Shown here: piece after piece, positions 1,817 through 21,647 of the stretch
Numbering within the stretch: position 1 is the first letter of the stretch
Layout: each line of letters opens with the position of its first letter
Source: a virus
DNA: 23,149 nt
IMG/VR virus record: IMGVR_UViG_3300046787_000269
Location: 1 to 23,149 of that record
Reading direction: 5' to 3' (one strand)
Position numbers and translations under genes: made by a program
The notes under the pieces: generated by a model
The model's input: only the letters and a program-made list of their open reading frames with translations
Databases searched by the model: none
Told to the model about the DNA's origin: nothing

Positions 1817-3826
1817 TTATTTCTTTGTTACGATTGTTTGAAACCAAAGGTGTCGGCACCAAGGTGTTGTTACCTGCGTGTCGGGGTTGGTATAAAAACC
1901 TCCGCGATATTTCCATACGTCGCGGTCAACACGGCTTGAAATGGTGTTTATTTCATCTCGGGTGTAGGCTTTGTTTAAAGCGATGAGTTGCGTGCAAAAT
2001 TCACGGCTTCCGCTCTTTGCCTCGGGAACGTCTGAGCGCACCTGATAGCTGTATCGGATTTCAAACTCTGGTATTTCGCCCTCTGCCGAATCAATTAATC
2101 GCTCGGCAAGCGCTGAAAGTTCGCCGTTTTTAATCAATCCCCAGTCATTGAGGCGCGCAATGGACAAAGCAACGTCTTTAATTGTGGTATTTGTGGCCTC
2201 GGCGATGGCGTTGGAGTCCTCTCCATTGTTTAATAAGCTCAAAATTTGCTTGTCAATGTCCTTCATTTCGGCTGAAATTTCGCCAATTGTAGCGAATACC
2301 TCATCATGCTTGGTAAACACGTCAGTCGCTAGGCTATCCCATTCAATTGGTAAGCGTGCGAATTCCCGAAAATCCGCGAATGAATCGCCAAACTCGCCGA
2401 ATACCTCAAGGTCTTCTTTACTGAATGTGTGCGAATGCTTGCAACTTGAGAACGTTGCTGCCTCAATACCCACCATTTTCTTAGCTGTGGCCTCATCAAT
2501 TGACGGGAATGAAGCTATAATAATTTCGGCGGCGCTATCGGCTGTGATTTCACCCGTTTTAACCTTGGCAACTACGTCAACAAGCGAGGCGATTTGAGCG
2601 CCGTTAAGGGCGGTTTTTGAAACATCTTCAATTGGCGCTGCTTCGGTTGTTGTGCCGGCTGCATCGGTTCCACTTGGGTTATTTACCACAACGGTTGGAC
2701 CAACCGCAGCCGCATTTGTAGCGTCTTCAATCGGTTGGATTTCGACTAGGCTTAATTCACCAACGTAGCCGCTCAATTCTGCCATGTAGTTAAGCATCCA
2801 ATTCAAGCGCTCTTGGCGCTGCATTACGTAAGTCTTTTTAAACACCTCGAATAACTGCGCTGATTCAGCCGCGTTAAATGAGCCCTGCTGCATTACTCCA
2901 AACAAAGTAGGGCTAACCACCCCGTGAGCAATTAAAATGTTTTGTAGGCAAGTTTTTCCCGTTTGGTCATAGCGCTTGTCTAGGTCATTGCCGTTTAGGT
3001 TCTGCACCAATGGCGCGCGCTCTTTGCTTTCGGCAAATGTGATAATGATGTCGCCAGCGTTGTCAACACCTGCGCTTTTTTCCTTGACCTGTGCAACAGC
3101 CTTGTTTATTTCCTCTTGCGTTTCTGGCACGCCGTCAGTCATGGTAATCAAGGTGCCACTCGAAAAGCTGTTTTGTACAAGTGAGTTATTATAGCGATTG
3201 AGTAAGTAGTCGGTTTCAATTGCGTAAATGCCTGAGAAATACGGCGGCTTTGGATAGATTCCAAGCTCTTTTTTGTTCTTCTTTACAGGGTCTTTGTAGA
3301 ATAAGAAAAACGAACCTGTTTTGTTTTCAGGGTTGTAAATCGGATAGTCGCGGTAACCTGTTTTCTCTAGGCTTTGATTTTGTGCATTCCAATCATTGGA
3401 CAAATAAACACGATCAATCTTCTCAGAAAAACGGCAGCTATCAATCGGCAAGGCTTCCCACTTAACAACCTTAGTGCCTTCCATATCCCAAGTGCCTTTG
3501 ACAATGAAACCGCCAAAGCCTTCGTAGTCCTCGGTCATTGCATCGGCAACCTCTTCAATTGTAAAGTCGCTATTTGGATTGTCTAGAAATTCCTGCAAGT
3601 TACCCGAAACGATTTCAATGCCACCGCCTGAAATGTAACGAATCTTGTTCTTTATGATACCACCATGCACAGGTGAGCCCTCGCGAAGTTCGTTAATGAA
3701 AAAAGGCCAATCATTTTTTTTGCCCCATTTCACAAAGCCGCCCTTGTCTTTCTCTTCAACAGGCTTGGCCATTTGCTTGGCAAAATTGACCTTTTCGATT
3801 ACGTTCTTAATTGGTTTGCTCTCCAT
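1817..3826 (-). CDS. Portal protein with C-terminal HTH and MuF-like extension
   Basis: This is a 669-residue protein. Residues 1-365 look like an HK97/SPP1-type portal: KNDWPFFINELREGSPVHGGIIKN near the start, then YEGFGGFIVKGTW, KWEALPIDSCRF, a stem-like region, and GVVSPTLFGVMQQGSFNAAES at about 302-322. The portal forms the dodecameric DNA channel at one capsid vertex and docks the terminase. Beyond a Thr/Ala-rich linker (about 370-405) come a helical segment (408-452), a winged-helix-like segment (about 524-580, DKQILSLLNNGEDSNAIAEA then ARLNDWGLI) and a terminal domain (588-669) with YTRDEINTIS, YRGGFYTNPDT and TPWCRHLW. That last pattern resembles the C-terminal domain of Mu F-like minor head proteins. 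No separate MuF gene is present nearby. The gene overlaps the upstream small gene by 20 bp and ends 2 bp before the connector gene. Confidence 0.88.
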   Translation of the reverse strand: MESKPIKNVIEKVNFAKQMAKPVEEKDKGGFVKWGKKNDWPFFINELREGSPVHGGIIKNKIRYISGGGIEIVSGNLQEFLDNPNSDFTIEEVADAMTEDYEGFGGFIVKGTWDMEGTKVVKWEALPIDSCRFSEKIDRVYLSNDWNAQNQSLEKTGYRDYPIYNPENKTGSFFLFYKDPVKKNKKELGIYPKPPYFSGIYAIETDYLLNRYNNSLVQNSFSSGTLITMTDGVPETQEEINKAVAQVKEKSAGVDNAGDIIITFAESKERAPLVQNLNGNDLDKRYDQTGKTCLQNILIAHGVVSPTLFGVMQQGSFNAAESAQLFEVFKKTYVMQRQERLNWMLNYMAELSGYVGELSLVEIQPIEDATNAAAVGPTVVVNNPSGTDAAGTTTEAAPIEDVSKTALNGAQIASLVDVVAKVKTGEITADSAAEIIIASFPSIDEATAKKMVGIEAATFSSCKHSHTFSKEDLEVFGEFGDSFADFREFARLPIEWDSLATDVFTKHDEVFATIGEISAEMKDIDKQILSLLNNGEDSNAIAEATNTTIKDVALSIARLNDWGLIKNGELSALAERLIDSAEGEIPEFEIRYSYQVRSDVPEAKSGSREFCTQLIALNKAYTRDEINTISSRVDRDVWKYRGGFYTNPDTQVTTPWCRHLWFQTIVTKK

Positions 3827-4962: not shown

Positions 4963-5931
4963 TTAGGCTGTGTGTAATTTGAACACGCCGATTTCGTTTG
5001 TGAACGGAACCTGAACACCACCGCGCATTTTAGAGCGGATGTAGAGCTTATCGTCGTCTTGTGAGTACCACAATTCGTATGATGCAGAATCAGTCGCCAA
5101 ATCAGTACCGAATACGAAATGTGAACGCTTGCCAACAAATATTTCAGTTGTGCCTGCAAGACCTGGTGTTTTTACCACAGTCAAGTCAGTACCCGGAATG
5201 ATGACCTCATTCATTGCAGCGATAGCTGCAGGTGAGTAATGGAAAAAGTTAAGGTCAACTAAGTTCTTCATCAACTTGTCAAAGTTACCACGTGAAGTAA
5301 ACGCGATTTTCTCGTCGCTTTCCATGATAGCATCGCTCATGTTTGAGTAACAGCCGTAAAAAATGTCGTAAGCGTTAGAGTTGGTAATTGACGTGATGTC
5401 AGAAGGATTCAAATCAACACAACCATTAGCAACGGTTAAGATGGTTTTGAAGCCATTGAACCATTGAAGGTTTCCTGTACCTGTTGAGGTGTTACCTTGC
5501 CAAATCAATTTATCCAATTGAACTGCATTTAAGCGCATCAAATAGTCAGTGATTGCAGCCTCGAAAGGGAGTTCTTTATCTTCTGCCATTGCACCCGGAC
5601 GTAGTGCTAATTGCGTCCAGAATCCGTCAAGGTCTTTGTTGCAAAAACCTTTTTTGAAACCGATTGCAACGGTTGTGATTTTGCGATCAGAAAGGACCGT
5701 ATCACCTTGGTCAGTCATGTCGCAGTCAGCCGCTTGATAAATTACTTCGTCGTTGAGCAATTTAATGTCTTGTGAACCTTTCACACCTTCTTGAGTGCGA
5801 ATGTAGTTCAATGTTACCGCTTCGCTTACTGAGCGTGTAACTAATTCAGCTTGTTGGTCGTCAACGTAAGCCGTTAAGTCTGATACGTCGTAATCAAACT
5901 TTGATTTAATGATGGATTTTAAAGAAGCCAT
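4963..5931 (-). CDS. Major capsid protein, HK97-fold type
   Basis: This is a 322-residue protein at the expected place after protease and scaffold genes. The N-terminal part (about 1-45) is helical and hydrophilic. The segment QEGVKGSQDIKLLNDEVIYQAADCDMTD resembles the N-arm/E-loop start of this capsid group. A central helix covers about 110-145, with PFEAAITDYLMRLNAVQLDKLIW. The C-terminal half carries PGTDLTVVKTPGLAGTTEIFVGK followed by FVFGTDLATDSASYELWYS and ends VPFTNEIGVFKLHTA. Alternating strands with a terminal beta-rich A-domain are typical of capsid proteins with the HK97 fold. It assembles the icosahedral shell on the scaffold. A terminator-like hairpin follows 13 bp after its stop, and 26 bp separates its start from the scaffold stop. 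Identification rests on pattern and synteny. Confidence 0.88.
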   Translation of the reverse strand: MASLKSIIKSKFDYDVSDLTAYVDDQQAELVTRSVSEAVTLNYIRTQEGVKGSQDIKLLNDEVIYQAADCDMTDQGDTVLSDRKITTVAIGFKKGFCNKDLDGFWTQLALRPGAMAEDKELPFEAAITDYLMRLNAVQLDKLIWQGNTSTGTGNLQWFNGFKTILTVANGCVDLNPSDITSITNSNAYDIFYGCYSNMSDAIMESDEKIAFTSRGNFDKLMKNLVDLNFFHYSPAAIAAMNEVIIPGTDLTVVKTPGLAGTTEIFVGKRSHFVFGTDLATDSASYELWYSQDDDKLYIRSKMRGGVQVPFTNEIGVFKLHTA

Positions 5932-5957
5932 TTTTGTTTGTTTTTGGGGTTTAAAAA

Positions 5958-6782
5958 TTATTTACGTTCTTGTTTTGCGGCATCAAGTAGCCTTTTTTGT
6001 TGAGCTGTAAACTTGCTCTCTTCACGCGTTATGCGCTGCGTTTCGCTGCCTTTATCAGACGGCTTGCTAGCAAGTGCATTGAAGCGAGTTGTTAGAGTGC
6101 TCAAATCCTCTTTAAGTTTTCCATTTTCAGCGCTCATTAACTCAACAACGCTTTGCAATTCCTTAGCGGCTGCAAATAGGTTTGAGTTAGTCGCTTTCAG
6201 CTCAGCAATGGCCGCGCTCATTTGCTCGTCAGAGCTTTCGGCGGGTGCCGCTGGTGATGCTTCTAGGAACATTTGTACTACTCCGTTAGCGTCAACCAAG
6301 AAACGACGGCCGTTAGCATCTTGGTATTCACCTGCGGATAGTGTGTAAACATCGGTTGTTTCGCCGTATGTATAAGAGTAGGTAAGTTTTGTGCCAACTT
6401 CAATTGTTTCTTGGTCGACATTCATTGACCACATAGACACCTGTGAAATCTCAGCGAAATGCTCAAGGGCTTTTTTACTGAATACTTCCGAGCCTTCGGC
6501 TGCGTTTTCTTCTTTGCTTTGCGCAACTGCCTCAATGATTTCAATGACAACGCCGTCAGCATCTAAAACGATACTCATGTTGTCCATCTCTACAAGTACG
6601 TGCGTTCCCTCTGGGGCAGGCACTTCGTTTTCGCCATCAACAACAAATACAGGTGTGCCAACTGTAAGGTCGCCTTCCCATTTTAAAAGCGTGCCATCTT
6701 CAAGGGTGGTCTCAAAAAATTTGCCAATCATTTTGGTGATTGTAGCAAACAAGGATTTAATTTTTTCGAATTTCTCTTTCAT
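5958..6782 (-). CDS. Capsid scaffolding protein with two beta-domain repeats
   Basis: This is a 274-residue protein between the prohead protease and the capsid gene. Residues about 20-85 form a strand-rich module (LEDGTLLKWEGDL, VGTPVFVV, VPAPEGTHVLV, IVLDADGVVIEIIEA) resembling a lipoyl-like barrel. A second, shorter module at about 130-178 closes with the same kind of motif (RFLVDANGVVQMFLEA). Residues about 185-240 are a strong coiled coil (MSAAIAELKATNSNLFAAAK onwards). The basic tail FTAQQKRLLDAAKQERK would suit capsid-shell binding. Coiled coil plus basic tail next to the capsid gene is the classic scaffold layout. The beta modules are extra. The gene starts 7 bp after the protease stop. 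The scaffold role is inferred from architecture and position. Confidence 0.75.
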   Translation of the reverse strand: MKEKFEKIKSLFATITKMIGKFFETTLEDGTLLKWEGDLTVGTPVFVVDGENEVPAPEGTHVLVEMDNMSIVLDADGVVIEIIEAVAQSKEENAAEGSEVFSKKALEHFAEISQVSMWSMNVDQETIEVGTKLTYSYTYGETTDVYTLSAGEYQDANGRRFLVDANGVVQMFLEASPAAPAESSDEQMSAAIAELKATNSNLFAAAKELQSVVELMSAENGKLKEDLSTLTTRFNALASKPSDKGSETQRITREESKFTAQQKRLLDAAKQERK

Positions 6783-18876: not shown

Positions 18877-19171
18877 TTTGGTAGTTTTTAAATGTTTCGT
18901 TGTAATAAAATTCAGCTTCTTGCTTCTGTGCATCCAAATCTTCATCTGTAAATACCAATTCTTGGTTAAACTCTTCAACCAAAGATTCCCAACATGATTG
19001 CGTAGTCTCAATTGAACATTTTATAATCTGCTGTTTAAAAGTCTTGCGCGCCTGTTTAAATATTTCAGAAACGTTGCTTTTGTAGTCAGTTATAGTGCCA
19101 TTCTCATTAACCAGTGCGTTTAGTTTTTCTTCTATTTGATCAACTACTGTTTGCTCCTTGTCATTACTCAT
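18827..19171 (-). CDS. Hypothetical helical early protein
   Basis: This is a 114-residue acidic, mainly helical protein of unknown function. It begins MSNDKEQTVVDQIEEKLNAL and continues with long charged helices (DYKSNVSEIFKQARKTFKQQ, ESLVEEFNQELVFTDEDLDA, QKQEAEFYYNETFKNYQNET). Its start overlaps the stop of the MBL nuclease gene by 4 bp (ATGA), so it is probably made with the recombination proteins. A coiled-coil partner for a DNA-repair protein is a possibility suggested only by context. The two Cys residues show no metal-binding spacing. Confidence 0.58.
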   Translation of the reverse strand: MSNDKEQTVVDQIEEKLNALVNENGTITDYKSNVSEIFKQARKTFKQQIIKCSIETTQSCWESLVEEFNQELVFTDEDLDAQKQEAEFYYNETFKNYQNETNIFNQSKLHQAIR

Positions 19172-19875
19172 AACTCAATTACTTGGTTTTTATCAGCGCA
19201 AATAGTCGGAATCCCGAAAGCCTTTTCAGTGTCCTGAATGAAGCGTTTTTCATCCGTATATCCATCGCTGAGGTGAATTAAAATGATTTGTTTGCACTCG
19301 CTTAAATCGAGCGTTTTTAGGGTTAATAAAGCGGCTTGAAAGCTCATGTGCGAGCGAAAGCGGCGCTTGTTTACAAAGTCATCAGCTTTGCCTTTGATGA
19401 GTTCCTCGCAGTAGTTTGCTTCAATCATTACGCAGGTTAGCTTGAATGCCGAAAAGTCATATTGTAACTTGTAGTTGTCAGTAATGAATAGCACGCGGTC
19501 AATAATGAAGTTAAGCGGCTCGGCTGCGTCATGGTTTGCGGTAAATGAACCAGCAAGAAAACCGAAAACCTCCCTTAAATATCCTTGATTTAAACGGCCT
19601 ATCCTATCTTCTGGACCAACTTTAAGCGCATCGTAAGTACCTGTGCTTGCATACATCGGAATCCCTGCGCCAACTACTTGCTTCCATGATTTAGAGTGGT
19701 CTTGTCACTGGTGCTCGTGAGACACGAGCACTGCTTTTATTTTTAAGAGGTTAAAATTTACTGCCTTTTGAATCTCGGCGAACTTAACACCGCACTCAAC
19801 TAAGAGCGCGGCGTTGTTCTTTTCGATTATGTAGGCGTTGCCTTTACTGCCGGATGAAATAATGTTGATTCTCAT
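19168..19875 (-). CDS. MBL-fold nuclease-like gene interrupted by in-frame UGA
   Basis: The ATG at 19875 overlaps the RecT stop (TAATG). The frame reads MRINIISSGSKGNAYIIEKN, then LLVECGVKF, then VLVSHEHQ and a TGA at codon 57 (bases 19707-19705), followed by QDHSKSWKQVVGAGIPMYAS and 179 open codons to base 19168. This is a YycJ-like metallo-beta-lactamase nuclease: SSGSKGN, the HxHxDH region, ANHDAAEPLNF with a further metal His, and a LIHLSDGYTD ending. MBL nucleases next to RecT are expected to supply the single strands that RecT anneals. The codons CAC CAG TGA CAA GAC CAC split HxHxDH by two extra codons, one of them the stop. A 6-nt hop from CAG to CAA would restore HEHQDH. Without recoding, only a 56-residue fragment is made, or the distal part starts independently at Met (19656). 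Whether it is recoded or broken is open. Confidence 0.72.
19702..19731 (-). promoter_or_regulatory. Candidate translational bypass site (hairpin, CAG-UGA-CAA)
   Basis: A perfect 9-bp stem with a 3-nt loop (19731-19723 GTGCTCGTG with 19719-19711 CACGAGCAC) directly abuts a CAG codon (19710-19708), then UGA (19707-19705) and CAA (19704-19702). The two Gln codons flank the stop. The layout matches a +6 hop over a stop, but this is a hypothesis. Confidence 0.4.
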
Positions 19876-20870: not shown

Positions 20871-20965
20871 TGTATATGAATTTAATTGGTTACAAAAGAT
20901 GCTCGTCTTTCCGAGCCGTCAGCGTTCTATTGAAAAGAAGGAAGTTATTGCGCCTATACCTTTTG

Positions 20966-21037
20966 CACGACACCTAGGACTCGAACCTAGACTAATGGAT
21001 TTGGAATCCATTGTGCTACCAATTACACCAATGACGC
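20966..21037 (-). tRNA. tRNA-Trp (CCA anticodon)
   Basis: The 72-nt minus-strand cloverleaf has a D-arm GTGT/GCAC with loop AATTGGTA, an anticodon stem ATGGA/TCCAT with loop TTCCAAA (anticodon CCA), a 4-nt variable loop and a T-arm CTAGG/CCTAG with loop TTCGAGT. The discriminator base is G, as is usual for tRNA-Trp. The acceptor stem has one T-T mismatch (position 4-69) and a G-T pair at the end, and no 3' CCA is encoded. The D-stem pair 11-24 is U-A. It stands between a homing endonuclease and recT, in the same direction as the operon. Confidence 0.85.
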
Positions 21038-21170: not shown

Positions 21171-21647
21171 CTAAAGCGTAGCTAATTTTTGACTATACGC
21201 CAAGTGAGCTGTTATTTCACAAGTGAAAGTACCTAAGTAAAGCACCTCGTTATTTACCACAATTTGAGATTTCCACTTTTTGCCAGACCTATAAACGCCT
21301 TTAAACCTACTTGCATACTTTCCTTGCGTTTTGCAAATGTTGTATCTATGTGTTACGATTTGCAAATTGCTTAATCGGTTGTCATTTGGAATATCATTAA
21401 TATGGTCTATAACCATTTTGAATCCATTTGGCACATGGTTTAAAAATGCCTCGGCTACTAAATGGTGAATCAATTTTACCTTCCTTAAATTATTTCCGTA
21501 AAGCGTAACAAACAAGTACCCATCTTTGTGAACTGATGGCTTTAAAATTCTTTCCTTGTCAAATCTTAGGCTTTTAACATTGCCAAAATTGCTTACTTGG
21601 TAAGCTCCCTCAAAATTGGGAATATCTCTCCAGACTTCTTTTTGCAT
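21171..21647 (-). CDS. Free-standing homing endonuclease, NUMOD4-HNH-AP2
   Basis: This is a 158-residue protein with three short modules. NUMOD4 lies at 4-27 (EVWRDIPNFEGAYQVSNFGN). The HNH nuclease core lies at about 58-100, with HH at 61-62, VIDHINDIPNDNRLSNLQIV at 79-98 (catalytic-site His82 and Asn90) and RYN. An AP2-like DNA-binding module lies at about 113-150 (SRFKGVYRSGKKWKSQIVVN, then LYLGTF). Such genes encode selfish homing endonucleases that cut a related phage genome lacking the insert. No intron or interrupted gene is obvious on either side, so it appears free-standing, in the gap between the Rad50-like gene and the tRNA-recT unit. Two copies of an 11-bp sequence lie just upstream of its start. 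Confidence 0.88.
   Translation of the reverse strand: MQKEVWRDIPNFEGAYQVSNFGNVKSLRFDKERILKPSVHKDGYLFVTLYGNNLRKVKLIHHLVAEAFLNHVPNGFKMVIDHINDIPNDNRLSNLQIVTHRYNICKTQGKYASRFKGVYRSGKKWKSQIVVNNEVLYLGTFTCEITAHLAYSQKLATL

Follow-up and report, generated by a model that had tools for sequence, protein, structure and literature searches.

A putative programmed in-frame stop-hop at the catalytic motif of a phage MBL-fold enzyme family

The stretch of DNA analysed here (the window) is a 23,149-bp virus record (IMGVR_UViG_3300046787_000269 in IMG/VR) of the tailed-phage type, with terminase, portal, RecT and SbcC-like genes. Directly after recT, on the minus strand, lies an MBL-fold gene (19875 to 19168) whose translation reads MRINIISSGSKGN...VLVSHEHQ-stop-QDHSKSWK..., and the frame 3' of the in-frame TGA stays open over 178 sense codons before it ends at a second TGA. 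Membership of the gene product in phrog_392 ('metal-dependent hydrolase') was judged from a profile match (E 3e-51), the HxHxDH motif and the downstream His/Asp motifs, all of which are present. On the same strand, a tRNA-Trp gene (anticodon CCA; 20965-21037) is located between recT and an HNH gene, the latter encoding a free-standing NUMOD4-HNH endonuclease (21171-21647) 1.3 kb upstream of the MBL gene. A long portal-like gene (1817-3826, minus strand) shows a weak C-terminal match, below the Pfam cut-off, to a wHTH-PRTase-associated domain. The features of the interrupted gene are as follows.

19168..19875, minus strand: interrupted MBL-fold gene (class II phosphodiesterase-like, phrog_392), 235 codons plus stop, in-frame TGA as codon 57
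19705..19875, minus strand: part 1, from the start codon up to the in-frame TGA, encoding 56 aa with the C-terminal end ...VLVSHEHQ
19168..19704, minus strand: part 2, proposed landing codon to real stop, 178 codons (QDHSK...IEL), stop-free and under purifying selection in stop-bearing relatives
19694..19756, minus strand: 63-nt block, proposed transferable cassette, identical in stop-bearing close relatives (one substitution, in L004) and strongly different from stop-free ones
19711..19731, minus strand: hairpin GTGCTCGTG-TCT-CACGAGCAC (codons VLV-S-HEH), perfect 9-bp stem with 3-nt loop, proposed mRNA-pulling 5' stem-loop
19708..19710, minus strand: CAG (Gln), proposed take-off codon, read from the sequence
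19705..19707, minus strand: in-frame UGA stop with C as the next base, read from the sequence
19702..19704, minus strand: CAA (Gln), proposed landing codon, readable by the same tRNA-Gln(UUG), read from the sequence
19696..19701, minus strand: GAC CAC, the D and H of HxHxDH by sequence and motif alignment, where normal decoding would resume

An earlier note on this DNA had described the codons CAC-CAG-TGA-CAA-GAC-CAC within the metal-site motif and a perfect 9-bp stem with a 3-nt loop immediately 5' of the take-off codon; we confirmed both on the minus strand (TGA at 19707-19705, hairpin at 19731-19711). The 3' end of the hairpin is the base directly before CAG, and the hairpin is unique within the window, where none would be expected by chance. 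Folded within 48 nt of context, it reaches -14.5 kcal/mol (z of -4.3 against dinucleotide shuffles), an energy matched by only 0.12% of synonymous re-drawings from the codon usage of the phage. CAG UGA is unpaired in the predicted folds. The signal is local, because the fold energy of a 121-nt stretch around the site is ordinary (z -0.5).

All 41 intact relatives compared have the same four motif residues (H53, H55, D57, and H58), in line with the earlier note's claim that a single residue is required between HxH and DH. Because of this invariance, only a net skipping of six nucleotides would give a legal active site. An intact relative is predicted with high confidence (pLDDT 92) to adopt a class II phosphodiesterase-like MBL fold, the structures nearest to this model being YhfI, Apyc1, RNase Z, and PhnP-type phosphodiesterases. 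Apyc1 holds two zinc ions through its HxHxDH motif (PMC9117128). The likeness to Apyc1, YhfI, and RNase Z consists of the MBL fold and the HxHxDH motif; the phrog_392 protein, however, is only 14-18% identical to solved members, Apyc1 is uninterrupted, and the phosphodiesterase role of phrog_392 is a predicted one. The MBL gene adjoins recT in many phages, and a homologue in a Porphyromonas phage is annotated as anti-Pycsar (Apyc1-like).

We rejected two general causes for a stop at this position. TGA is the terminal stop of 5 of the 26 window genes checked, as well as of the interrupted gene; it is therefore an ordinary stop in this phage, and UGA has not been reassigned in an alternative genetic code. 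A phage-encoded suppressor tRNA was also dismissed as a general cause, the window having a tRNA-Trp(cca) and the other window-clade contigs scanned being free of tRNA genes.

Relatives of the gene at 81% identity or more were found at 13 IMG/VR loci, one of which (L014) contains just the final third. The identical CAG TGA CAA and hairpin are present in five IMG/VR contigs from other metagenomes (L002, L003, L004, L006, and L007), with L002 and L003 carrying the same gene in two different metagenomes. Since two GenBank isolate genomes additionally carry a different version of the element (see below), the assembly artefact that the earlier note had offered as an alternative is excluded. Seven close relatives have neither insert nor hairpin and encode HEHGDH or HEHLDH. 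Only about half of the close relatives in the window clade carry the element, so it is dispensable there.

The 63-nt block stands out in comparisons of these alleles. Across alignment columns 121-180, 59 of 60 sites are invariant in stop-bearing alleles versus 34 of 60 in stop-free alleles, and synonymous divergence for the same pairs is 0-0.18 in the block versus 0.24-0.77 upstream and 0.26-0.79 downstream. Because stop-bearing and stop-free members cluster together in the gene flanks, the block appears to have moved between backgrounds by short-tract recombination, to be held by constraint at the RNA level, or both. It includes eight codons 5' of the hairpin (FNLLKIKA), which contain no KKYK-like signal and have no equivalent in the other lineages. 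A separate variable module (window about 19550-19620, minus strand; residues about 90-112), which reads RIGRLNQGYLREVFGFL versus RQRALYHGAISGPVKCF and others, is exchanged among close relatives without regard to whether they carry the stop cassette.

When the window gene was used directly as a DNA query against phage genomes, no match was returned. A protein search of phage genomes, in which no stop pattern was used, led to the cultured Cellulophaga phages phi18:3 and phi46:3 (GenBank), whose interrupted MBL gene has about 35% amino acid identity to that of the window and is annotated as two genes. The junction in these phages is GTGGCCGCGTGTATAGTTACACACGGCCAC-CAA-TGA-CAG-GAC-CAT (HGHQ-stop-QDH), with a hairpin (12-bp stem, one mismatch) on its 5' side that ends right at the take-off codon. 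In their siblings phi19:3 and phi13:2, precisely TGACAG is missing and the motif reads HGHQDH, which in phi19:3 is the predicted hop product of phi18:3. The MBL genes of phi19:3 (L056) and phi18:3 (L043) differ little beyond the six nucleotides and a roughly 50-nt patch beginning at the insert (about 1670-1725), a pattern that suggests gene conversion at the insert. Two more divergent lineages, known from one metagenomic contig apiece (L050 and L052, the latter missing its 3' end), both have CAA TGA CAA with a stem ending at the take-off codon.

Codon position, net +6 spacing and Gln-UGA-Gln identity are the same in all lineages, while the wobble bases differ (CAG/CAA; CAA/CAG; CAA/CAA twice), as do the stem sequences. 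In each of the four, the take-off and landing codons are readable by one tRNA and the stop, always UGA, directly follows take-off. A tree of 86 family members, for which the trait column was masked, requires no fewer than four changes of the stop trait and rejects its confinement to one clade. As L050 and L052 have long branches and may share an origin, we take three to four independent lineages as the safe figure; the architecture recurs in at least that many. The earlier note had looked to homologues for conservation of the insert and hairpin, an expectation that holds across distant relatives, where the element is recurrent, but not among close relatives, where it is polymorphic.

We also scanned 2.9 million viral contigs for HxHQ-stop-QDH encoded with CAR-TGA-CAR. 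The scan gave 14 stretches, nine of them phrog_392 MBL genes; L048/L051, L049/L053, and L055 were discarded as chance matches in other frames. Control scans for GGN-TGA-GGN and CAR-TAR-CAR gave 15 and 22 stretches, none of which was in an MBL gene, and no further interrupted motif was seen among more than 100 additional relatives. Among 84,980 genomes of bacteria and archaea, the single match (L020, Rokuibacteriota) lies in a non-MBL gene and was likewise attributed to chance. The MBL gene of Staphylococcus phage StB27 (L220 801-1504) aligned in two pieces, the first part being unannotated, and has a small frame-shifting indel near codon 40, which we consider an ordinary indel different from the stop element. 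In a screen of 1.33 Mb of collected DNA, 19 matched-codon stops were found inside long open frames, nine of which are the Gln-UGA-Gln element; because part of this DNA was gathered by pattern, the instances unaffected by that bias are those of the window and phi18:3 alone. A different site, AAA-TAG-AAA, lies in frame between adjacent head-region genes in L027 (13466 of the reverse complement) and L039 (about 14568). Here, the first gene ends in ...KQLSTIGK or ...KQLSTISK and the next starts with MKEKFEK, with matched Lys codons and no stable hairpin.

To compare the pairing potential at the site, we folded the 48 nt up to and including the second His codon. The energies of the four stop-bearing lineages are -13.7, -15.9, -20.8, and -20.9 kcal/mol, and the last (3') base of the hairpin is paired in 6/6 stop-bearing sequences from all four. 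In a separate comparison with shuffled sequences, the lineages have z values of -4.3, -5.1, -2.6, and -3.2. For 70 distinct intact relatives, the mean is -7.3 kcal/mol (sd 3.4); three reach -13.7 kcal/mol, two of which are the phi18:3 siblings, and 11 of the 70 have a 7-bp helix at the hairpin boundary. The hairpin is still present in stop-free phi19:3 and weakened in stop-free phi13:2. Because the conserved codons of the family give modest pairing potential in general, the hairpin may have been recruited from pre-existing pairing rather than made anew.

Downstream of the stop, dN/dS between stop-bearing alleles is 0.08-0.24 at dS 0.26-0.79, which argues for translation of this part of the gene. 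The earlier note had named a recent 6-bp insertion as another alternative; simple decay is disfavoured by these values and by the recurrence in at least three to four lineages. If the cassette has moved recently, part of the purifying selection could date from stop-free backgrounds.

Our interpretation is that the element is likely a programmed in-frame stop-hop, the most compact kind of translational bypassing. Ribosomes would translate up to the Gln codon 5' of UGA, whereupon the upstream stem, unwound during their passage, would re-form directly behind the P site and pull the mRNA backwards (and so the ribosome forwards). UGA followed by C is a leaky, weak stop context, and the combination of this pull with slow termination would allow peptidyl-tRNA-Gln to come off CAG, move on by six nucleotides, and pair again at CAA. 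One Gln would thereby be decoded from nine nucleotides, HEHQ-DH would rebuild the metal site, and a full-length MBL phosphodiesterase/nuclease would be made, while ribosomes terminating at UGA would release an inactive 56-aa fragment. The sequences show the anatomy of the site, its recurrence, the open and constrained downstream frame, and the motif invariance; from these we infer that a hop takes place, that the hairpin pulls, and that tRNA-Gln(UUG) is the carrier. A hairpin touching the take-off codon would be well placed to pull over a very short distance, and the usage of UGA only would fit competition with release factor 2 at the weak UGA-C context. The nine-nucleotide codon-stop-codon layout and the predicted HxHQDH outcome fit an in-frame stop-hop, and phi19:3 encodes exactly that peptide. 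As an interpretation, the +6 hop of peptidyl-tRNA-Gln from CAG to CAA that the earlier note put forward is supported.

Other explanations share some of this evidence. Plain read-through, in which a near-cognate or suppressor tRNA decodes UGA to give HxHQ-X-QDH, is compatible with the leaky UGA-C context, the open downstream frame, and the window's own tRNA-Trp gene. We consider it improbable, because the resulting three residues between HxH and DH should, judging from the spacing conserved in 41 relatives, destroy the metal site. It also leaves unexplained the matched Gln codons in every lineage and the empty controls (0/15 and 0/22), and the window-clade contigs scanned other than the window, including all five other stop-bearing ones, have no tRNA gene. 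Inactivation is about as improbable. Here, a broken allele of a dispensable anti-defence gene would be spreading by recombination, with only the 56-aa fragment made or the gene switched off, as might be suggested by the coexistence of stop-bearing and stop-free alleles in close relatives and the short-tract recombination of the block. Random inactivation would not, however, demand Gln-UGA-Gln and a hairpin, nor does it account for the independent recurrence of the same architecture in divergent lineages, the strong downstream purifying selection, or the lack of any other in-frame stop in the motif among the more than 100 relatives read.

A split protein, with termination at UGA and downstream re-initiation giving two chains that assemble, has a precedent in other split phage enzymes (PMC2988022) and is how GenBank presents phi18:3 and phi46:3, with two separate MBL genes. 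However, both the TTG annotated as the second start (locus position 1702) and the window's first ATG (19656) lie 3' of the codons for the D and H ligands, which would leave DH out of either chain; with the matched codons and the +6 register also unexplained, we regard this arrangement as very unlikely. Least credible is removal of the six nucleotides from RNA or DNA (by processing, editing, or programmed DNA rearrangement) before translation. The same protein would be expected and the hairpin does adjoin the site, but the retained codons need not match under such a mechanism, and the stop-free DNA variants are found only as separate contigs or isolates. We know of no phage system that removes 6 nt in this way.

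Two ideas may be considered for the purpose of a stop-hop. It could be regulatory, with a fraction of ribosomes completing the enzyme, or, by analogy, the insert could be selfish or protective, its six nucleotides interrupting the DNA where the gene is most conserved. A linked homing endonuclease was evaluated and rejected for want of a consistent association with the insert. A 96% identical copy of the window NUMOD4-HNH gene was found only in the L012 record, and in L052 a different NUMOD4-HNH gene (about 5836-6400) immediately precedes the interrupted gene. NUMOD4/HNH genes also occur in stop-free L012 and phi19:3 and are absent from stop-bearing records other than the window and L052, so the linkage is unsupported.

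To our knowledge, efficient natural bypassing in bacteria and phages has so far meant almost entirely T4 gene 60. If our interpretation is true, these genes contain the simplest natural bypass signal (six nucleotides, zero frame), present in several phages of which two are cultured with a cultured host. It would also mean that apparent nonsense mutations within active-site motifs can be functional, and would provide a short module for directly testing the pulling role of a 5' hairpin. Gene finders currently split or discard genes of this kind.

Bypassing as such is already known, whereas the in-frame stop-hop was known only from synthetic genes according to a 2016 review by Atkins et al., which stated that none was known in nature (PMC5009743). 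Our search of openly accessible literature, later papers included, turned up synthetic stop-hops but no natural one. In E. coli, synthetic stop-hops with an identical layout are functional, with matched codons flanking the stop as the requirement (PMC5009743). They share with the phage element the codon-stop-matching codon order, the net +6, the zero frame, and the decoding of 9 nt as one amino acid, but they are designed reporters, whereas the phage element occurs naturally, recurs, and has a 5' hairpin abutting its take-off codon.

T4 gene 60 is believed to rely on a 5' stem-loop whose re-pairing behind the ribosome pulls the mRNA (PMC5009743), and synonymous mutations that remove it have been used to lower bypassing (PMC11194080). 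The T4 insert is also thought to protect against a nearby endonuclease (PMC5009743). Both cases involve a phage gene, a stop directly 3' of take-off, and a movable DNA segment. T4 gene 60, however, has a 50-nt gap, Gly codons, and UAG, as opposed to a 6-nt gap, Gln codons, UGA, and zero frame, and its 5' stem-loop lies further 5' instead of abutting the take-off codon. The take-off stem-loop containing the stop, the 3' stem-loop, and the KKYK nascent-peptide signal of T4 are not seen in the phage element, for which a homing-endonuclease linkage of the T4 mobA/gene 60 kind is also unsupported. The byp elements of Magnusiomyces/Saprochaete mitochondria are similar in being short inserts that are bypassed in translation and thought to be mobile, but they are mitochondrial, longer, context-independent, relaxed in codon matching, and present in dozens per genome. 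Against these systems, the phage element is probably the first natural in-frame stop-hop family: a minimal, portable hairpin with Gln-UGA-Gln that would have repeatedly arisen or spread within a single phage enzyme family, in phages of different hosts, at the catalytic motif, where it may control the amount of enzyme or shield the motif DNA from a site-specific nuclease.
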